Positions 15,627 to 25,292 of a stretch of 64,000 nucleotides of DNA are shown piece by piece. This stretch comes from Algoriphagus ratkowskyi. Lineage in GTDB: Bacteria; Bacteroidota; Bacteroidia; Cytophagales; Cyclobacteriaceae. The DNA lies in contig NZ_MSSV01000009.1 of NCBI RefSeq assembly GCF_002150505.1, positions 186,001 through 250,000 on the forward strand, in the 5' to 3' direction. The notes beneath the pieces were generated by a model. It worked only from the letters and a program-made list of their open reading frames with translations. It was not told the DNA's origin and searched no databases. The position numbers were made by a program, and so were the translations under genes. How positions within the stretch are numbered: position 1 is the first letter of the stretch; each line of letters starts with the position of its first letter.

Positions 15627-16145
15627 ATGAAGAGGCTTCTTTTCTTTGCTTTGATCCTTTCGTCATTTGGTTGTACTACCGAAACAAGGTATACCCAGCA
15701 ATCTCCCGAGATAGATATTTTCAAATCCATTATTGGAAATTATGTAGCTGGAGAATGGAATGAATACGCAGCTCATTATGCAGATGGAGCAGTGATTTTC
15801 TTTAATGTCACGGAAGATTACCCTTCCTCTATCCAAGAAATTATCGCTGGACAAAAGCTGAGTATTGAACCTCTATCAACCTATTCTTTTGACCGAGATG
15901 AGGAAGAATTAGAGATGGTAATGACGGACGAAGGCGAAACGTGGGTCAATTACTGGGGCTTATGGAAAGGAACTATTGCGGCCAATAATAAAACTTTCGA
16001 AATGACGGTGCATATCACTTCCCAGTTTGTAGATGGAAAAATCGTAAAAGCTCACGGCTATTGGAACATCGCTCCATTGCAGATGGAGCTAATGCAGATA
16101 CAAGAAGCGGCAGCAACTATAGCTGAGGAAGAAACGCTTGATTAA
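15627..16145 (+). CDS. Putative lipoprotein with NTF2/SnoaL-like fold
   Basis: The 172-residue product begins with a lipoprotein signal whose lipobox is SSFGC (Cys16). The mature part contains the pattern of SnoaL/NTF2-like proteins: ISIIGNYVAGEWNEYAAHYADGA-type start, then EETWVNYWGLWKG and a final KIVKAHGYWNI strand. Such cone-shaped domains bind small ligands or act as scaffolds, and catalytic residues are not predictable here. It faces away from the kinase operon and sits alone. A role in the envelope is inferred only from the lipobox. Confidence 0.8.
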   Translation: MKRLLFFALILSSFGCTTETRYTQQSPEIDIFKSIIGNYVAGEWNEYAAHYADGAVIFFNVTEDYPSSIQEIIAGQKLSIEPLSTYSFDRDEEELEMVMTDEGETWVNYWGLWKGTIAANNKTFEMTVHITSQFVDGKIVKAHGYWNIAPLQMELMQIQEAAATIAEEETLD

Positions 16146-16392: not shown

Positions 16393-16416
16393 AAAAAGCC
16401 AGCGTCTCCACTGGCT
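16390..16416 (-). terminator. Terminator of the trp operon after aroF
   Basis: On the minus strand an 8-bp stem (AGCCAGTG with CGCTGGCT, one wobble) and a GAGA loop are followed by seven T residues. It lies about 12 nt after the DAHP synthase stop codon. Confidence 0.85.
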
Positions 16417-16428
16417 CTAATTTTTTCA

Positions 16429-17448
16429 TTATAATAAATCAAATCCTTTTCGCATCGCAAAGCTCTCTCTGATCCAGCCTGCAAGTCTTGCACTTTGTGC
16501 AAAATCCAGTGTCTGCTGTCCGTCGGAATAGGCTTTCTCCGGCACTTCATGCGATTCGTAGATAATCCCGTCGGCTCCTGACATCACTCCTGCCAAAGCC
16601 ATCTGAGGAACGTAAGCTCTGATTCCAATTCCATGTGAAGGATCAACAATCACAGGTAGGTGGGATTTCGCTTTCAAGATCGGAATAGCATTCAAATCTA
16701 AGGTGTTTCTAGATGCACGCTCGTAGGTACGTATGCCTCTTTCGCAGAGAATCAATTTTTCATTTCCTCCCGAGAACACATACTCTGCAGACTGCAAAAG
16801 TTCTTCGATCGTACCAGAAATACCGCGCTTGATCATTACTGCCTTGTCTACTTTACCAAGCTCGTCCAGCAAATTAAAGTTCTGAGAGTTTCTCGCTCCC
16901 ACTTGATACACATCCACGTAAGGATACATTTCTTCTATCTGGGAAGTTTGCATCACTTCGGTGACAATCTTGATTCCTGCTTCGCTCGCGATTTTATGCC
17001 ATAGCTTTAAGCCCTCCAGCCCCAAACCACGGAATGCGTAAGGGCTTGACCTAGGTTTGAACACGCCACCACGCATCATTTTAATGTCATTTTCTACGCA
17101 GTGAGCTACCACAGCACGGATTTGCTCTTCTGTCTCAATGGAGCAAGGCCCGGTGATCACAGCCATTTCTCCTTCTTTGATGAAAATTCCATCGCCTAAA
17201 TCCACGGAAGTTGGCTTGGCTTTCCACTTTTTGGAAACCAATTTGTATTCGTCAGAGACAATGTGAATGTCAATAATTCCGTCCATGTTGCCGATTTTAC
17301 GGATATCGAATTCCTTTTTACCGATACCAATTAGATAAGAACCCAATTGGGTTTTTACTTCAGTGGTTTTATAGCCTACTCCATTGACCTCAAGGATCAA
17401 TTTGTCTTTTTGGCTGTCGGAAATATCGGGTTGAAGTTGGATGATCAT
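16429..17448 (-). CDS. aroF: 3-deoxy-7-phosphoheptulonate (DAHP) synthase, type I-beta
   Basis: The enzyme condenses phosphoenolpyruvate and erythrose 4-phosphate to DAHP, the first step of the shikimate pathway. The 339 residues comprise a ferredoxin-like N-terminal regulatory domain (about 1-70) and a TIM barrel. Barrel motifs include ITGPCSIE (100-105), GGVFKPRSSPYAF, YQVGARNSQNF, MIKRG, CERGIRTYE and DPSHG. This layout matches the AroG-beta/Thermotoga-type enzymes, whose N domain mediates feedback inhibition. It is the last gene of the trp operon, 104 nt after trpA, so precursor supply would follow tryptophan demand. Which amino acid inhibits it cannot be told from the sequence. Confidence 0.95.
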   Translation of the reverse strand: MIIQLQPDISDSQKDKLILEVNGVGYKTTEVKTQLGSYLIGIGKKEFDIRKIGNMDGIIDIHIVSDEYKLVSKKWKAKPTSVDLGDGIFIKEGEMAVITGPCSIETEEQIRAVVAHCVENDIKMMRGGVFKPRSSPYAFRGLGLEGLKLWHKIASEAGIKIVTEVMQTSQIEEMYPYVDVYQVGARNSQNFNLLDELGKVDKAVMIKRGISGTIEELLQSAEYVFSGGNEKLILCERGIRTYERASRNTLDLNAIPILKAKSHLPVIVDPSHGIGIRAYVPQMALAGVMSGADGIIYESHEVPEKAYSDGQQTLDFAQSARLAGWIRESFAMRKGFDLL

Positions 17449-17552: not shown

Positions 17553-18335
17553 TTACAATTTTTCAATAATGACTGATTGAATATATGTCTGAATGTCTTC
17601 ATTTAAGCTTTTTGAGCTTTTTACGGTTTTGATGAATGCAGAGCCGATGATTGCTCCATTGCTATTTTCGGAAGCTTTGGAGAACGTTTCAGCATCTGAA
17701 ATTCCAAAACCTATCAGTCTTGGGTTTTTCAAATTCAATGCCTGTACTCTTTCGAAATAGGAGACTTGCTCTTCTGTAATTCCTGATTTCGCGCCTGTGA
17801 CTCCATGAGATGAAACCATGTAGATGAATCCACTGGTGTTTTCATCAATTTCTTTGATCCGCTTTTCGGTAGTTTGAGGTGAGATCAAGAAGGTGTTCAC
17901 CAAGCCATACTGCTCGAACAATGCCTTGTAATCATCTAAATATTGCTGCATTGGCAGATCTGGAAGTATCAATCCATCAACTCCTACTTCTTGGCATTTC
18001 TTGCAAAATGCTTCCATACCATACTGCATGATAGGATTCAAATAGCCCATCATCACCACGGGAATGTGAATTTTGGAGCGAAATCCTTTGAGTTGTTCAA
18101 ATAACTTTTTCAAACTTATCCCATTTTCCAAAGCAATCATATTACTATCCTGAATCGTAGGACCATCTGCGATAGGATCAGAATATGGGACGCCAATCTC
18201 TATAATATCTGCTCCTCCTGCCTGAATCGCCTCCATAATCGGAAGTGTGTCCTCTAGCGCAGGAAAACCTGCCGTAAAGTAGATCGAGAGCACACGGCTC
18301 TTTTTGCTATTGAATAAGGTATGTATTCGGTTCAT
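17553..18335 (-). CDS. trpA: Tryptophan synthase alpha chain
   Basis: TrpA cleaves indole-3-glycerol phosphate to indole and glyceraldehyde 3-phosphate, passing indole to TrpB. The 260-residue TIM barrel has the catalytic acid Glu46 in DIIEIGVPYSDP and Asp57 in IADGPT, with the VMMGYLNP, GLILPDLP and SSHGVTG motifs. Length is normal for the family. It follows trpB after a 230-nt spacer that contains a simple GATTGAAA-type repeat, an unusually long gap inside the operon. It is separated from aroF by 104 nt. Confidence 0.97.
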   Translation of the reverse strand: MNRIHTLFNSKKSRVLSIYFTAGFPALEDTLPIMEAIQAGGADIIEIGVPYSDPIADGPTIQDSNMIALENGISLKKLFEQLKGFRSKIHIPVVMMGYLNPIMQYGMEAFCKKCQEVGVDGLILPDLPMQQYLDDYKALFEQYGLVNTFLISPQTTEKRIKEIDENTSGFIYMVSSHGVTGAKSGITEEQVSYFERVQALNLKNPRLIGFGISDAETFSKASENSNGAIIGSAFIKTVKSSKSLNEDIQTYIQSVIIEKL

Positions 18336-18343
18336 CTTGATTT

Positions 18344-18389
18344 GATTGGAAAATTGAAAGATTGAAAAATTGGAAGATTAGGTTGAAAG
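18344..18389. repeat. Simple repeat in the trpB-trpA spacer
   Basis: Degenerate units of the type GATTGAAA/GATTGGAA are arranged in tandem. The 21 nt at 18360-18380 are identical to 22975-22995 in the trpE-trpG spacer. The rest of this 230-nt spacer (to 18565) is AT-rich with no gene. Confidence 0.7.
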
Positions 18390-18565: not shown

Positions 18566-19744
18566 TCAGTAATTTCCCCATTTAATGTAGGTTTCCAGAT
18601 CCTTGTCTCCTCTTCCGGAAAGATTGATAACAATCACATCATCCTTGGAATATTCGATCAAATTCAATGCATAAAGTGCGTGAGCAGATTCTATGGCAGG
18701 GATAATTCCTTCAAGCTTGCTGAGTTCAAAGCCTGCAGCCATTGCATCTTTATCTTCTACAGCTACGAACTCACCTCTTCCCACATCAAACAAATGCGCA
18801 TGAACTGGCCCAATTCCTGGGTAGTCTAAACCTGCTGAAATCGAATGTGGCTCTACCACTTGTCCATCTTCTGTCTGCATCAATATCGTCTTCGATCCAT
18901 GCAATATCCCTGGAGTACCCAAAGCCGTTGTTGCAGCGGACTTACCTGAATTAACTCCCAATCCAGCAGCTTCAGCAGCTACTAATCGTACTTCAGGTGT
19001 ATTGTAATAATGGTAAAAAGCCCCAGCAGCATTTGATCCTCCACCCACGCAGGCGATCACGATATCCGGATTTTCTCTTCCTTCTTTCTCCTTCAACTGC
19101 CATTTCATTTCCTCGGAAATCACAGACTGAAATCTCGCTACCATTTCTGGATATGGATGTGGCCCTACTACAGAACCGATAATATAATGTGTGCCAACTG
19201 GATCATTGATCCAGGCACGCATGGCTTCATTGGTTGCATCTTTAAGCGTTTTTGAGCCTGAAATCGCAGGAACTACTTTGGCTCCCAAGATTTTCATGCG
19301 TTCCACATTGGGATGCTGACGAGCGATGTCGATTTCACCCATGTAAACAGTGCATTCCATGCCCATCAGTGCGCAAACTGTAGCCGTAGCCACGCCATGC
19401 TGACCAGCGCCAGTCTCAGCAATAATCCGCTTTTTGCCAAGCTTCTTAGCCAAAATAATCTGACCAATTGTATTGTTCACCTTATGAGCTCCGGTATGAC
19501 AAAGATCTTCGCGCTTGAGGTAGATTTTGGCACCGTGCTTTTCAGAAAGTCGGGAAGCAAAATACAGCGGCGTAGGTCTGCCTACATAGTCTTTCAGCAA
19601 ACCTCTGAATTCGTCCTGAAACTCGTGTGAAGCCATGATTGCCTCGTAGTTTTCTTTCAGTTCTTCGATATTTGGGTGCAGCATTTCGGGGATGTAAGCT
19701 CCGCCAAACTTGCCGTAAAAACCCTTTTCATCTACTTTGATCAT
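18566..19744 (-). CDS. trpB: Tryptophan synthase beta chain
   Basis: TrpB is the PLP enzyme that joins indole and serine to tryptophan. The 392-residue sequence has the PLP lysine Lys88 in [13 protein letters not shown], the phosphate-binding [10 protein letters not shown], and the family motifs [12 protein letters not shown] and [11 protein letters not shown]. It is a canonical TrpB1 in length and motif order. It lies 9 nt downstream of trpF and should be made from the same transcript. The protein forms the alpha2-beta2 complex with TrpA encoded next. Confidence 0.98.
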
Positions 19745-19753
19745 TTCTTGTAG

Positions 19754-20407
19754 TTAGTTATTGGTTGCTGGATGTTTGTCAATCCCAAGTAACCCATTCT
19801 TAAAACTTTTCAGTTTTTTTATATTCTTCAATCCAGGGGCATCTTCAAATTTGGAATTCAAATCCACTCCCACGAGTCGCGGTAATCGATGTGCCAAATC
19901 CATAATCTCCTCCATACTTTCCTCATCCAATCCTCCACTCAGTAAAAATCCAACTTCAAAGGGATAGCCTTCCAGCACATCCCAATTGAATCTTTTCCCA
20001 GAGCCCCCGTGCTCGACGGTTGCAGTATCAAATAGAAAGTATTCTACCAACCCCACATAGTCTCTCAATGTTTCCCAATCGATGCTTTCTCCTACTGAAA
20101 TAACTTTCCAAAGTTTCTTGCCAGTTTTCAACTTCAACTCCCGCACATACTCCGGGCTCTCATTTCCATGAAGTTGAATTGTGGAAAGCTTAAATTCATC
20201 GATTTTATCTAGGACAAAGTCAACGGACTCATTTACAAATACTCCAACTTTGGGCACTTCTACTACTTGAATTGACGCTGCAAAATCATCGGATACATAC
20301 CTTGGGGACTTCGAATAGAATATCAAGCCCATCCAATCAGGCTTAACTTCTTGGATCAGGTTGTGGATATTTTCCGCTTCCCGCATTCCGCAGACTTTGA
20401 ATTTCAT
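19754..20407 (-). CDS. trpF: Phosphoribosylanthranilate isomerase
   Basis: TrpF isomerises N-(5-phosphoribosyl)anthranilate to the CdRP substrate of TrpC. I choose the ATG at 20407, giving 217 residues starting MKFKVCGM. The longer frame (to 20458) adds 17 residues that do not look like the family, and the extension would contain an RNA hairpin. Key motifs are KVCGMREAENI, GLIFYSKSPRYV, VGVFVN, QLHGNES, LFDTATVEHGGSGKRFNWD and LLSGGL. The phosphate loop reads GVDLNSKFED instead of the usual DxSSGxE, a mild deviation. It is a stand-alone TrpF, not fused to TrpC. Confidence 0.93.
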   Translation of the reverse strand: MKFKVCGMREAENIHNLIQEVKPDWMGLIFYSKSPRYVSDDFAASIQVVEVPKVGVFVNESVDFVLDKIDEFKLSTIQLHGNESPEYVRELKLKTGKKLWKVISVGESIDWETLRDYVGLVEYFLFDTATVEHGGSGKRFNWDVLEGYPFEVGFLLSGGLDEESMEEIMDLAHRLPRLVGVDLNSKFEDAPGLKNIKKLKSFKNGLLGIDKHPATNN

Positions 20408-20428
20408 GTGTTTATTATTTGATTTTTT

Positions 20429-20482
20429 ATAGGCCAAAAAGCCTATGTCTAACGTCAATACATATCATTTCGTGATACGTAT
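20429..20482 (-). promoter_or_regulatory. Two intercistronic hairpins between trpC and trpF
   Basis: A 6-bp stem (20429-20434 with 20441-20446, A/T-rich loop) and a 10-bp stem with one G-U wobble (20458-20467 with 20473-20482) occupy the 111-nt gap. They may be processing or stability elements, or chance. The larger one straddles the alternative trpF start. Confidence 0.4.
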
Positions 20483-20518: not shown

Positions 20519-21337
20519 TTAGAAGCTTACTTCTGCTTCCTCTGTCAAGATCTTCTTATACTCTTTGATGAAAGTATAAGCGGCTTGTTCTGGACGGCTT
20601 GATTTCATAAAGTTCTCACCGATTAGGAACCCATCGAAACCAGCTTTTTTCAAGGTGATTAAAGTAACAGGATCAGAAATTCCAGATTCAGAAATCTTCA
20701 CAAAGTCAGACGGAATCTTATCTACTAAGTCTAGAGACGTTTGTAACGATACCTCGAAAGTCTTCAGGTTTCGATTGTTCACCCCAACTAAATCCAAATC
20801 TGCACATAAGCTTCTTTCCAACTCTTGGCCATCGTGCACCTCCATCAGCACTTCCAGGCCAAGGCTTTTTGCGAAAGCCGCCAACTCCTTCAATCTAGCT
20901 GGCTCTAAAGCCGCAGCAATTAAAAGAACACAGTCAGCACCTATAGATTTTGCTTCTAAGATCTGGTATTCATCCACCACAAAGTCCTTGCGAAGGATTG
21001 GGCAAAAGTTGAACTTTCGAGCTCCCATCAGATCTGCATTGCTTCCGCCAAAGAAATCCGTGTCGGTCAAAATCGATAAGGCAGAAGCTCCAGCCTGCAT
21101 ATATCCGATACTTACAGCTTCTACTGCAGCAGAACCATTGATCAAGCCTTTGGAAGGTGACTTTCTTTTGAATTCCGAGATGATCCCTGACTTTTCCGGA
21201 TCACACACGTACTTTTTCATGGAGACCACTTTCCCTTCGAAATAAGCACTTTTCTCCAAAAGTTTTACTGGCACCAAACTGCTTCTTTCAGCTACTTCGA
21301 TGTGCTTTTGAGCAATAATTTTATCTAAAATGTTCAT
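20519..21337 (-). CDS. trpC: Indole-3-glycerol-phosphate synthase
   Basis: TrpC decarboxylates and cyclises CdRP to indole-3-glycerol phosphate. The 272-residue TIM barrel has SEFKRKSPSKG, SILTDTDFFGG, PILRKDFVVDEYQI, LLIAAAL, MEVHDGQEL, GVNNRNLKTFEV and SESGISD, the normal order of active-site segments. Lys of the RKSPSKG and RKDFV motifs are the expected catalytic bases. It starts 6 nt after trpD ends, within the operon. Confidence 0.97.
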   Translation of the reverse strand: MNILDKIIAQKHIEVAERSSLVPVKLLEKSAYFEGKVVSMKKYVCDPEKSGIISEFKRKSPSKGLINGSAAVEAVSIGYMQAGASALSILTDTDFFGGSNADLMGARKFNFCPILRKDFVVDEYQILEAKSIGADCVLLIAAALEPARLKELAAFAKSLGLEVLMEVHDGQELERSLCADLDLVGVNNRNLKTFEVSLQTSLDLVDKIPSDFVKISESGISDPVTLITLKKAGFDGFLIGENFMKSSRPEQAAYTFIKEYKKILTEEAEVSF

Positions 21338-21343
21338 GATTTT

Positions 21344-22354
21344 TTAAGCTAAAGAGACTGTTGTTTTAGGCTTGACCAGTCCGTTAAATACCTGAAGTGC
21401 TTTTTGGTTTAGTAGGGATTCTTCCGCCACAGCCACTGCATCTACAAAAGAAAGTCCTTCTCGAGCGGTGACCAATGCGGCAGCCGAGTTGGCGATTACC
21501 ACCGAATTTTGGCTTTTGGTACCTTTCCCTTTTAGGATATTTTCAAATATTTTCGCAGATTCCTGAATGGTCTCTCCACCCTGTATAGATGCTGCGGTTA
21601 ACTTAGACAAGCCAATATTTTCAGGAGAAAAGACTTTTTCCCCGGAATTAGAAATCATCTTAAAGTCACCTGTAAGTGAAATCTCATCATAGCCATCCAA
21701 GGCATGGAGAATAGAGAATCTACCTTCCATATCCTGATAGAGATATCCATATAAACGAGCTAATTCCAAGCTAAATACGCCTACCAATTGCTTCCTAGGA
21801 AAACTAGGGTTTACCATCGGACCTAGCATATTGAAGAAGGTTTTCACACCTAAGTCTTTTCTGATCGGGCCGACATGCTTCATAGCCGGGTGAAAAAGTG
21901 GTGCATGCAAGAAACATATTCCAACCTCATCCAAACTTTGACGGATTTTATCTAGATCACTTGTGAACTCGTAGCCAAAGTAGGCGAGCAAATTAGAAGA
22001 CCCACAGATGGATGAAACACCAGTATTTCCATGCTTGGCGACATTTTGTCCGGCTCCAGCAACTATAAAGGAGGAAAGTGTAGAGATATTAAAGGTGTCT
22101 TTGCCGTCTCCGCCTGTACCGCATAGATCCATAGCGTCATACTCGTCGATTTCCACCGGAATACATCGCTCTAGCATGGCTTCGCGGAAGCCAGACAATT
22201 CCTCCACAGTAATGCTACGCATTAGATACACCGTCATAAATGCAGCAATCTGACTTGTATTGTAATTTCCGGCGGTAATGTTTTTTAAAACCTCTTTCGC
22301 ATCCTCTTTAGTGAGGGTTCGATGTGCGATGAGGTGATTTAAAATATCTTTCAT
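21344..22354 (-). CDS. trpD: Anthranilate phosphoribosyltransferase
   Basis: TrpD transfers phosphoribose from PRPP to anthranilate. The 336-residue protein has the glycine-rich PRPP site LCGTGGDGKDTFNIST, the KHGNTGVSS loop and GPMVNPSFP. The helical N-terminal domain begins ILNHLIAHRTLTKEDA. The sequence is full length and shows no missing motif. It lies 30 nt after trpG and is not fused to the amidotransferase subunit, unlike in enterobacteria. Confidence 0.97.
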   Translation of the reverse strand: MKDILNHLIAHRTLTKEDAKEVLKNITAGNYNTSQIAAFMTVYLMRSITVEELSGFREAMLERCIPVEIDEYDAMDLCGTGGDGKDTFNISTLSSFIVAGAGQNVAKHGNTGVSSICGSSNLLAYFGYEFTSDLDKIRQSLDEVGICFLHAPLFHPAMKHVGPIRKDLGVKTFFNMLGPMVNPSFPRKQLVGVFSLELARLYGYLYQDMEGRFSILHALDGYDEISLTGDFKMISNSGEKVFSPENIGLSKLTAASIQGGETIQESAKIFENILKGKGTKSQNSVVIANSAAALVTAREGLSFVDAVAVAEESLLNQKALQVFNGLVKPKTTVSLA

Positions 22355-22384: not shown

Positions 22385-22951
22385 TTAATTCTCCATCCAG
22401 TTTTTGAGAATCTGAACTCCGTTTTCTGTAAGAATGCTCTCGGGGTGAAATTGCATTCCTCTGACATCATAACTCTTATGCCTAATGGCCATAATTTGAT
22501 TATCAGGCGTACGTGCGATCACTTCCAAGTCTGGTGAAAGGGTGTTTTCATCGACAACCCAGGAGTGATATCTACCAATACTAAAAGTATCGGGAACGTT
22601 TTTGAAAAGCAAATCATCTTCTACTTTTACTATAGAGGCCACGCCATGAAGTACTTCGGACAAATTGATCAGCTCTCCTCCAAAGGCTTCTCCGATTGCC
22701 TGGTGACCTAAGCAGACGCCTAATATAGATTTGGTCGCCGCATATTTCTTCAAAAGTTCAGGCATTATCCCTGCGTCTTTTGGAACTCCCGGACCAGGCG
22801 AAAGAATTATTTTATCGTATTGAGCTACGTCTTCCAAAGAAATCTTATCATTTCGGAATACATCCATCTGCGCGCCATAGCCCAACTGCCTTATTATGTA
22901 AACCAGGTTGTAGGTGAAGGAATCGTAATTATCAAGGACGAGTATTTTCAT
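22385..22951 (-). CDS. trpG: Anthranilate synthase component II (glutamine amidotransferase)
   Basis: TrpG releases ammonia from glutamine for TrpE. The 188 residues carry the class I amidotransferase triad: nucleophile Cys in ILGVCLGHQAIGEAFGG, and His-Glu in GMQFHPESIL. The N terminus is KILVLDNYDSFTYNLV and the oxyanion strand is LSPGPGVP. Context next to trpE supports TrpG over PabA, although one protein can serve both synthases. The 41-nt spacer from trpE is filled by a GATTGAAA-type simple repeat. Confidence 0.95.
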   Translation of the reverse strand: MKILVLDNYDSFTYNLVYIIRQLGYGAQMDVFRNDKISLEDVAQYDKIILSPGPGVPKDAGIMPELLKKYAATKSILGVCLGHQAIGEAFGGELINLSEVLHGVASIVKVEDDLLFKNVPDTFSIGRYHSWVVDENTLSPDLEVIARTPDNQIMAIRHKSYDVRGMQFHPESILTENGVQILKNWMEN

Positions 22952-22959
22952 TTTAATTT

Positions 22960-22995
22960 ATTGAAAGATTGGAAGATTGAAAAATTGGAAGATTA
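22960..22995. repeat. Simple repeat in the trpE-trpG spacer
   Basis: Four degenerate GATTGGAA/GATTGAAA units fill the gap and run into the trpE stop codon. The last 21 nt are identical to 18360-18380 in the trpB-trpA spacer. Confidence 0.7.
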
Positions 22996-24405
22996 AATAC
23001 TCTCAGCTGCGCGCAACGCCACTCTCAGCGCTTCCAACTTATTAGCAACTTCCTGCAATTCAGAAGGAATAGTCGATTTGGCAACTACTCCTGCACCTGC
23101 TTGAAATCGAAGTTGATTGTTTTCAGAGACAAATGATCTAATCAAAATTGCATGATTGAAATCTCCATTGAATCCTAAATAACCAATAGCTCCTCCATAA
23201 AACGTTCGGGATACATTTTCCAACTCATCTATCAGCTGCATTGCTCTGTATTTTGGAGCGCCAGAAAGTGTTCCTGCCGGAAATGTATCTGCTACTAATT
23301 GAAGAGGGTTCGTGCCTTCTGGTAATTCTCCAGTCACTTTGGAAACCAAATGAATGACGTGAGAATAGTATTGAATCTCCTTAAATACATCCACAGATAC
23401 TTTTTCTGAAGACCTACTCAAATCATTCCTTGCCAAGTCCACCAGCATTACATGTTCCGAATTCTCTTTAGGATCATCGTAAAGCTGACGAGCCAATACC
23501 GCATCATCTTGGTCATTGCCTGTTCTGCGGAAAGTGCCTGCTATGGGGTAGATCGTAGCTTTTTTATCCTTAACTACAATCTGCGCTTCAGGAGAACTTC
23601 CAAAAACCTTGAAGGAACCATAATCGAAATAGAATAAATAAGGGGATGGATTTACCGATCGAAGCGCTCGGTAGACATTAAATTCATCGCCTTTGAAAGC
23701 TGTGCTGAATCGACGAGAAAGCACAATTTGAAATACATCTCCTTTGAAGCAATGTTCCCGCCCCTGGTTCAAAATTTTCAAAAACTCCTCATCCGTATAG
23801 TTTGATTCTTCCTCACCTACACGCTGGAAGGAGTAACTTGGGATATTTTTATTATTCAGGAGACGCTCGATCTCCTCCATCATTTCTACATTTTCTGCTC
23901 CTGCGACTCTATGCTCAAGCAAGTGCAGTTCATTTTTGTAGTGATCTACGACGATTACATTCTGATAGACCGAATACTGCATCATCGGCACATCAGTTGG
24001 GTTGGTGTTCTGAAGTGTAATATCTTCAAAATAGGCTACCGTGTCGTATTGAATGTATCCAAAGAGCCCATTCGAGCTGAACTTGAATTTATCCTGAGCT
24101 ACATCAAACTTATCACCGAATGCACGCAGACTCTGCATCAAGTTCTGATGCGAACTCACTTCATAGCTTTCCTTTTTGCCAGAAGGAAGACTTTCCACGA
24201 CCTTGCCTGCATTGAAGGTAAACGTTGCTAATGGATTAAAACAGATATAAGAATAACTGTTTTCATGTCCATGGTAATCAGAACTTTCCAGCAGAATAGG
24301 ATTTGCGAATCGATCTCGGATCTGCAAATAGATACTTACCGGCGTGATCGTATCTGCCAATCGCTTTTGATAAGTAGTCAGTATTGGAAATTTAACTTGA
24401 GTCAT
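22993..24405 (-). CDS. trpE: Anthranilate synthase component I
   Basis: TrpE makes anthranilate from chorismate and ammonia, the first committed step to tryptophan. The 470-residue sequence shows the chorismate-binding core: GDVFQIVLSRRF, NPSPYLFYFDYG, GSSPEAQI, YPIAGTFRRTG, MLVDLARNDLSR and AGTLSGAPKYRAMQLIDELE. The N-terminal regulatory region (about 1-190) includes YLLESSD-like residues in PILLESSDYHGHENSYSYI, where tryptophan feedback binding occurs in the family. It is the first structural gene of the operon, about 20 nt after the attenuator terminator. Confidence 0.97.
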   Translation of the reverse strand: MTQVKFPILTTYQKRLADTITPVSIYLQIRDRFANPILLESSDYHGHENSYSYICFNPLATFTFNAGKVVESLPSGKKESYEVSSHQNLMQSLRAFGDKFDVAQDKFKFSSNGLFGYIQYDTVAYFEDITLQNTNPTDVPMMQYSVYQNVIVVDHYKNELHLLEHRVAGAENVEMMEEIERLLNNKNIPSYSFQRVGEEESNYTDEEFLKILNQGREHCFKGDVFQIVLSRRFSTAFKGDEFNVYRALRSVNPSPYLFYFDYGSFKVFGSSPEAQIVVKDKKATIYPIAGTFRRTGNDQDDAVLARQLYDDPKENSEHVMLVDLARNDLSRSSEKVSVDVFKEIQYYSHVIHLVSKVTGELPEGTNPLQLVADTFPAGTLSGAPKYRAMQLIDELENVSRTFYGGAIGYLGFNGDFNHAILIRSFVSENNQLRFQAGAGVVAKSTIPSELQEVANKLEALRVALRAAESI

Positions 24406-24424: not shown

Positions 24425-24460
24425 TGAAAAAAGGCTTACCGGAGATCCAGTAAGCCTTTT
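24425..24460 (-). terminator. trp operon attenuator terminator
   Basis: On the minus strand, arms 24460-24450 and 24439-24429 form an 11-bp perfect stem. A run of six T residues follows (24432-24427). It ends about 22 nt before the trpE start codon and lies 38 nt after the leader peptide stop. A downstream terminator placed between a Trp-rich leader peptide and trpE is the expected layout of an attenuator. A shorter alternative pairing of AAGCC after the leader stop with GGCTT in the 5' arm could act as antiterminator (inference). Confidence 0.85.
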
Positions 24461-24497
24461 ATACTATGTATAGCGCAAAATTAAATGCAGGGGCTTT

Positions 24498-24560
24498 CTA
24501 AACTTCCTTTTGGAAAGAGTAAGAGTGCCACCACCAATATTTGTTTGCGATTGTTTTCAT
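24498..24560 (-). CDS. trpL: trp leader peptide with three tandem Trp codons
   Basis: A 20-codon frame begins with ATG at 24560 and ends with TAG at 24500-24498. It reads MKTIANKYWWWHSYSFQKEV, so residues 9-11 are three TGG codons in a row, in a window where Trp is otherwise rare. It lies between a promoter and an intrinsic terminator ahead of trpE. Family knowledge: ribosome stalling at Trp codons when charged tRNA-Trp is scarce disfavours the terminator. Function is inferred from this layout. Confidence 0.85.
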   Translation of the reverse strand: MKTIANKYWWWHSYSFQKEV

Positions 24561-24571
24561 AAGAGTGAGGG

Positions 24572-24601
24572 CAAATTTATAAAGGGAATATTAAGGACAA
24601 A
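24572..24601 (-). promoter_or_regulatory. Promoter of the trp operon
   Basis: Minus strand TAAATTTG (24579-24572) matches the TAnnTTTG -7 box. TTTG (24601-24598) stands 18 nt upstream as -33 element, close to the usual 19-21. Transcription would start just before the leader peptide ATG at 24560. Confidence 0.75.
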
Positions 24602-24737: not shown

Positions 24738-25292
24738 ATGAAAAATAATCTACTCGCTCTTGTATTAATTTTTTCTAGTATTGGAATTATTACTGCTCAA
24801 TCTTCCGCAGAATGGAAAGCCCCTATGTACCAAGTTAGCTTTGAATCTGATTCGGGTGCTATGGCTCAGATGCAAATTGACAAAGGGTATCGATACGCAG
24901 ACCTTGATTTTGAAGGAAGAAAATTTCATTTGTTTTTTAACCATGACAACAATGAAATAAAGAATGCTAGAATTATGGAGCCTAAAACCAACCTGCAAAT
25001 CGCCAGAGGAAGAGGAAGTTATTTCTGGGGTAATGCCCGTTTTGAATTTGTAGACGGAGAAGTTTACAAAGTCAAAAGGAAAAATAAAGCGAATGGATAT
25101 GAAATAATCGGGCCATACGGAACTCTTTTCAAGGTGGAAAATCATGCTATTAGTCCTGTGAAACCTATAAACGAAAAAGACTTTTTGACACAAGCTTTCT
25201 ATGTCTTTCAGAGAATCAAGGTTACTCAAAGTAATCCTTCAGATGTGATGATATTTTACTCAAACTACTATCCTATCGGCCCGAATGAGTAA
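24738..25292 (+). CDS. Hypothetical secreted protein
   Basis: The 184-residue product has a signal peptide (about 1-20, ending IITAQ) and a mature region rich in aromatic and charged residues. Beta-strand-like stretches include YRYADLDFEGRKFHLFF and GSYFWGNARFEFVDG. No known domain is recognised and there is no lipobox. It is divergent from the trp operon, across a spacer of about 135 nt from the trp promoter. It is followed 24 nt later by a small conserved gene, so the two may form an operon. An envelope location is inferred from the signal peptide. Confidence 0.7.
   Translation: MKNNLLALVLIFSSIGIITAQSSAEWKAPMYQVSFESDSGAMAQMQIDKGYRYADLDFEGRKFHLFFNHDNNEIKNARIMEPKTNLQIARGRGSYFWGNARFEFVDGEVYKVKRKNKANGYEIIGPYGTLFKVENHAISPVKPINEKDFLTQAFYVFQRIKVTQSNPSDVMIFYSNYYPIGPNE

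Follow-up and report, generated by a model that had tools for sequence, protein, structure and literature searches.

The tryptophan biosynthesis operon of Algoriphagus ratkowskyi is very probably governed by a ribosome-mediated transcription attenuator of the Bacteroid-trp kind. This reading, proposed in the initial annotation of the locus, is supported in silico by the parts that are present, by their conservation among relatives, by mutually exclusive RNA pairings and by model folds. The window, i.e., the whole stretch of 64,000 nucleotides that was analyzed, carries one attenuator cassette, which is a real and ordinary member of an already named Bacteroidota family; the added value of the present analysis lies in the anatomy of the antiterminator and in the serial cassettes encountered in relatives. 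Algoriphagus belongs to the Bacteroidota, Cytophagales, Cyclobacteriaceae, and the TrpE protein encoded in the window shares 95% identity with the TrpE of A. aquimarinus and with that of A. chordae. The elements of the proposed switch, given here in the order in which they would be transcribed, are the following:

24598..24601, minus strand: TTTG, a −33-type promoter element (consensus match only), separated by a spacer of 18 nt from the −7 box
24572..24579, minus strand: TAAATTTG, a −7 box of the Bacteroidota TAnnTTTG type (consensus match)
24567, minus strand: putative transcription start, placed according to the box position in F. psychrophilum (PMC9723704)
24498..24560, minus strand: leader peptide ORF MKTIANKYWWWHSYSFQKEV of 20 codons, with its ATG at 24560 and its stop codon UAG at 24500-24498
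24528..24536, minus strand: three Trp codons at positions 9-11 of the leader, proposed to be regulatory from the sequence
24503..24517, minus strand: possible protector hairpin CUUUCC(AAA)AGGAAG, which appears in full-length folds and would sequester the antiterminator strand in the absence of a stalled ribosome
24492..24507, minus strand: 5′ strand of the antiterminator, GGAAGUUUAGAAAGCC, which straddles the leader stop codon UAG and starts 20 nt past the last Trp codon
24441..24456, minus strand: 3′ strand of the antiterminator, GGCUUACUGGAUCUCC, which comprises the terminator 5′ arm, the loop and the start of the 3′ arm
24429..24460, minus strand: intrinsic terminator hairpin of 14 pairs (one G-U) with the loop AUCU, from folding
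24427..24432, minus strand: terminator U run of six U, from the sequence

According to the proposed mechanism, RNA synthesis would begin some 7 nt ahead of the leader ORF. A shortage of charged tRNA-Trp would stall the ribosome on Trp codons 9-11; the footprint of the stalled ribosome would cover the upstream competitors while leaving the strand 24507-24492 free to pair with the 5′ arm and loop of the terminator (24456-24441); this antiterminator pairing would block the terminator and trpEGDCFBA-aroF would be transcribed. When tryptophan is plentiful, the ribosome would instead reach the UAG codon located within the antiterminator strand and mask this strand, and the terminator would form. In this scheme the parts, their conservation and the exclusive pairings are shown in silico, together with model folds that assume ribosome footprints; the start, the stalling, the termination and the coupling in the cell are inferred.

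The operon that this switch would control lies directly downstream on the minus strand, and NCBIfam matches bear out the annotated order trpE, G, D, C, F, B, A, followed by the DAHP synthase gene aroF; the trpE and trpF matches lie below the strict NCBIfam equivalog cut-offs and those of the other six genes above theirs:

22993..24405, minus strand: trpE, anthranilate synthase component I (TIGR00564 best, 429 bits, below the cut-off of 517.7; ATG at 24405)
22385..22951, minus strand: trpG (TIGR00566, above cut-off)
21344..22354, minus strand: trpD (TIGR01245, above cut-off)
20519..21337, minus strand: trpC (NF001377, above cut-off)
19754..20458, minus strand: trpF (NF002295 best, 142 bits, below the cut-off of 216)
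18566..19744, minus strand: trpB (TIGR00263, above cut-off)
17553..18335, minus strand: trpA (TIGR00262, above cut-off)
16429..17448, minus strand: aroF, DAHP synthase (NF006421 and TIGR01361, above cut-off)
16395..16418, minus strand: candidate terminator-like hairpin with a U run directly after aroF, from structure and sequence

The start codon of trpF is uncertain, the ORF list giving a TTG and the family match beginning at residue 17. Three matches to the DAHP_synth_1 family were found in the genome, and the aroF of the operon is therefore one of several. The hairpin at 16395..16418 is likely the end of the putative operon. Similar 16-bp tandem repeats of the GATTGAAAAATTGAAA type occur in the gap between trpB and trpA (18344-18379) and in that between trpE and trpG (22960-22994). 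Outside of the operon, the window encodes on the plus strand a 184-aa protein divergent from the trp operon (24738-25292) and a 172-aa protein (15627-16145), both without a Pfam match at E ≤ 0.001, and the plus strand at 25663-25753 matches the Bacteroidales small SRP RNA (RF04183, 65.5 bits), in a genome that belongs to the Cytophagales.

The leader ORF of 20 codons with W-W-W at positions 9-11 was found on the minus strand just as annotated. The sequence TGGTGGTGG occurs in three copies in the window, compared with 0.17 expected, and one of these copies, that of the trp locus, was examined as a leader. Conservation was assessed in two samples that share species. The first consists of 81 TrpE loci, i.e., the window and the best 80 of 586 relatives ranked by TrpE, taken from contigs of one genome per species. 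A Trp-rich short ORF was present at 81/81 of these loci, 80 of them with WW and one (L056) with WHW; since L056 has WHW instead of WW, the set used in the shuffle, folding and protector tests (hereafter set A) has 80 rows. The second, or order sample, comprises 174 genomes, 141 with TrpE and 33 without it at E ≤ 1e-90; removal of the window itself (G000) and of two partial matches (G100 and G112) left 138 upstream stretches. A WW short ORF with a terminator was found at most 450 nt upstream of trpE in 105 of the 138 stretches and in 4 of 1380 dinucleotide shuffles, and the combination of a WW leader and a terminator is thus far above chance. Under a looser criterion that allows WxW, a Trp-rich leader and terminator were detected in 108/138 stretches. 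Conservation of both the leader ORF and the hairpin, which had been put forward as a check of the annotation, is hence seen in 81/81 loci and in 105/138 stretches across the order.

Thirty of the 138 stretches, two of them shorter than 350 nt, had no detected leader and terminator. Twenty-five of these 30 belong to the families f4, f15, f20, and f22, and because of this concentration, loss of the attenuator or its replacement by another regulator is possible in these families. Extra upstream "leaders" in L147 and L182 were judged spurious, and a few of the single leaders in the scan of the order sample may be spurious as well. Leaders of unusual length (34-36 residues), with WWW in a late position and a terminator that differs, were noted in the f2 genomes L163, L166, L172, L175, L177, and L181, and the attenuators of two Roseivirga genomes (L049 and L051) end 195 and 136 nt before trpE, respectively, with extra sequence in between.

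The promoter-like pair TTTG/TAAATTTG is likewise present on the minus strand as the annotation had it. With 5 matches in the 64 kb vs. 2.25 expected, the promoter pattern taken by itself is not significant. In 73/80 leaders of set A and 50/105 leaders of the order sample, the 90 nt that precede the Trp codons contain a TAnnTTTG box, compared with 31/525 shuffles of the order-sample stretches at the same distance. A scan for sigma-70 promoters remained at chance level and was discarded as uninformative for Bacteroidota. In F. psychrophilum, the mapped promoter box is reported at −12 to −5, with leaderless messages amounting to 5.5% and a median 5′ UTR of 24 nt (PMC9723704). Should the box occupy the same position in A. 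ratkowskyi, the leader transcript would have a 5′ UTR of only about 7 nt. The gap between box and leader ATG was at most 4 nt in 5/72 leaders measured in set A and in 5/49 measured in the order sample, and the leader mRNA of these relatives would then be leaderless. At several of the loci L060, L077, L231, and L243-L248, only about 4 nt separate the end of the −7 box from the ATG of the first leader, which likewise predicts a leader mRNA of the leaderless kind.

Downstream of the leader, the terminator had been described as an 11-bp hairpin with six T residues ending about 22 nt before trpE. The hairpin, the six residues and the position shortly before the gene all stand; the stem, however, counts 14 pairs including one G-U, and the end of the U run is separated from the ATG of trpE by 21 nt. 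The leader RNA folds with a z-score of −4.42, and a terminator was found by the script criterion for 84/84 leaders of the 81 loci. A general terminator scan of the window, overall at chance with 9 terminators found vs. 8.7 expected, did not list the trp attenuator hairpin, probably because its stem occupies part of the U run; indeed, part of the U run pairs inside the stem.

The antiterminator, which the initial annotation had considered short, proved to be extensive: 14 of 16 positions pair between 24507-24492 and 24456-24441, and the duplex GGAAGUUUAGAAAGCC:GGCUUACUGGAUCUCC has a predicted energy of −16.9 kcal/mol that none of 100 shuffles equaled. The corresponding pairing outperformed at least 95 of 100 shuffles in 82/84 leaders of the 81-locus set (mean z of −3.57) and in 82/105 leaders of the order sample (mean z of −2.81), in which the remaining 23 missed this criterion. 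A pairing spelled with other letters is preserved in relatives: GGGAAAGCUCAGAAAGCC pairs with GGCUUACUGGAUUUCCC in other Algoriphagus, Belliella and Cecembia combine GGGGAAGAACC and a loop resembling GGUUUNCCC, and the Fulvivirga-like members use GUGAACAGC and GCUGUUCAC. In Flavobacterium, where the counterpart is GUCGUGA with UCACGAC, the arrangement differs in that the strand bearing the stop codon pairs with the loop and 3′ arm of the terminator, and the stretch that follows it pairs with the 5′ arm. When compared with dissimilar foreign terminators, the cognate terminator gave the antiterminator strand a better fit than their mean in 99/105 leaders and than at least 95% of them in 66/105, which suggests co-evolution of strand and terminator. 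The spacing between the last Trp codon and the start of the antiterminator is also constrained (order sample: median of 18 nt, quartiles 16, 18, and 18; window: 20 nt), whereas the position of the stop codon varies among leaders. Such a tight spacing is what a ribosome footprint would require.

Folding with alternative pairings, another check called for by the annotation, favored the antiterminator when an assumed ribosome footprint was placed on the Trp codons and abolished it when the ribosome was placed at the stop codon. For the unfinished transcript of the window, the antiterminator pairing had a probability of 0.15-0.20 in the absence of a ribosome, which changed to 0.66-1.0 when a ribosome occupied W9, W10 or W11 and to 0 when it occupied the stop codon; the antiterminator is part of the minimum free energy fold computed with no ribosome, although its ensemble probability is only about 0.2. 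Upstream sequence paired with the 5′ arm and loop of the terminator at mean values of 0.46, 0.70, and 0.05 in set A; the order sample gave 0.44, 0.66, and 0.13 (no ribosome, stalled ribosome and ribosome at the stop codon, respectively), the last value of each series being low in part by construction because a ribosome placed at the stop codon masks the strand. Pairing was higher in the stalled state than in the stop state in 80/80 members of set A and 102/105 of the order sample, and higher than without a ribosome in only 71/80 and 89/105, respectively; six of the 105 order-sample members were without the contrast between stall and stop. The finished hairpin wins in every ribosome state, and the decision must therefore be kinetic and co-transcriptional, as is generally the case for attenuators. 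The protector hairpin was no more stable than in shuffles (mean z of −0.30 in set A and −0.91 in the order sample), and default termination in the absence of translation is thus not well supported.

The likeness to the enterobacterial trpL attenuator resides in the tandem Trp codons, in the competition between antiterminator and terminator, and in the location of the stop codon within the competing strand. The window differs from trpL by its promoter of the Bacteroidota type, its predicted 5′ UTR of about 7 nt, its three Trp codons and its weak protector hairpin, and by the lack of a TrpR match (PF01371) in its own genome, in a search that was positive in some of the 14 control genomes.

Whether such an element had been described in this lineage was not known to the initial annotation; a precedent does exist in the phylum, as the family RF01692 (Bacteroid-trp, "Bacteroidete tryptophan peptide leader RNA" in Rfam) originates from Weinberg et al. 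(2010; PMC2864571) and was discussed in 2019 as a Trp-leader element preceding the trp operon of F. psychrophilum (PMC6414381). A transcriptome paper of 2021 also mentions clues for leader-peptide attenuation before amino-acid operons of F. psychrophilum (PMC9723704). These attenuators resemble the present one in that leader-peptide attenuation is proposed and Bacteroid-trp precedes the trp operon (PMC9723704; PMC6414381), F. psychrophilum being a member of the Flavobacteriaceae, unlike the host of the window. In a permissive scan of 241 nt, RF01692 matched the leader with 38.4 bits (E of 0.0029), which is below the gathering score of 49, and a scan of the window at gathering level omits the leader. 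The alignment takes in the whole model (1-131) and positions 24583-24449, a span that includes the Trp codons and reaches the 5′ arm of the terminator, and the context of the family, upstream of trp biosynthesis genes in Bacteroidota, is also that of the window leader. The structure given for RF01692 consists of a long stem that surrounds the Trp codons and ends inside the terminator, and the antiterminator proposed here is absent from it. Two congeners (G020 with 57.3 bits and G009 with 50.3 bits) and one other member of the order pass the gathering score. Under stricter filters, RF01692 matched 4/58 genomes at E ≤ 0.001, the genome of the window not being among these, as opposed to 105/138 stretches by direct examination of a different set of genomes; this suggests that the model misses many members, and it may be too narrow for Cytophagales.

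Other ways of accounting for this leader have to be weighed against ribosome-mediated attenuation. The His residue that often follows the Trp run in this lineage (WWWH) could point to an arrest peptide similar to TnaC, in which the nascent chain would sense free tryptophan, as opposed to codons sensing uncharged tRNA-Trp. The leader, however, varies strongly outside of the Trp run and occurs in WW, WHW or WxW forms, and in the tna system, arrest by free tryptophan turns genes on at high tryptophan, a sense opposite to the need of a biosynthetic operon; an arrest peptide is accordingly very unlikely. The same variability outside of the Trp run speaks against a short ORF that acts in trans as a peptide, with a terminator that merely releases a small RNA, a mechanism reported for peTrpL of S. 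meliloti (PMC7298713). The antiterminator strands, moreover, fit their own terminators. Action in trans would be compatible with attenuation in cis as well. We consider this reading highly improbable.

It is equally hard to credit a leader that binds a ligand or a protein (T-box, TRAP, PyrR-like or unknown riboswitch) and contains the ORF only incidentally. A weak match to the PyrR model (25.9 bits, E of 0.087) would speak for it, and this match was rejected together with other weak Rfam matches as far below gathering (54 bits for PyrR). The genome of the window yielded neither a TRAP match (PF02081) nor a T-box covariance match in searches that both ring in B. subtilis; each of the two was positive in some of the 14 control genomes. 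Furthermore, a short ORF with clustered Trp codons at 81/81 loci and an antiterminator whose spacing is locked to these codons are at odds with an incidental ORF and agree with ribosome-mediated attenuation.

Some relatives carry more than one cassette. Two WW leaders, each with a hairpin of its own, precede trpE at three of the 80 loci of the best 80 of 586 relatives, namely those of Fulvivirga marina (L042), of a Flammeovirgaceae MAG (L052) and of Rufibacter latericius (L065). A pattern search for serial attenuators in 390 genomes of the order matched 31 of them, a total that is at chance since a reversed control pattern also matched about 31/390 by hand count. Twenty of the matches became loci, 7 of which encode TrpE adjoining the pattern and 13 of which do not; for matches without a locus, only the printed sequence was considered. 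The seven TrpE-adjoining cases correspond to six of the seven sampled members of the genus g89 and to G307, from the family of the window itself; their hairpins were scored by script for L065/L243 and L129/L248 and were read by eye in the others. L065 and L243 share their upstream sequence, and the distinct genomes with serial attenuators are therefore nine, namely L042, L052, L065 (= L243), L129 (= L248), L231, and L244-L247. All nine (9/9) are free of a TAnnTTTG box in the interval from the first leader to the second; one such box is located ahead of the first leader, with an additional one farther upstream in L247. Among the matches listed in a literature search that covered few subscription journals, there was no report of serial trp attenuators, and titles mentioned tandem attenuators only for Salmonella mgtCBR.

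The trp attenuator of Cytophagales could be a modular cassette, often nearly leaderless and with a fixed ruler of about 18 nt between Trp codons and antiterminator, of which several lineages stack two without an intervening promoter box, so that read-through would be multiplied and the response to Trp shortage would become steeper, a proposal that we hold to be evenly balanced between right and wrong. The serial attenuators provide natural material on how stacking alters the response curve. A candidate mechanism, with its antiterminator, the placement of its stop codon and its spacing ruler, is now attached to an RNA family cataloged in Rfam. Should aroF be co-transcribed with the trp genes, the switch would also act on the entry of the shikimate pathway. 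Finally, an attenuator of this kind would imply coupling of transcription and translation in a phylum whose messages are reported to be without Shine-Dalgarno sequences (PMC6847099).
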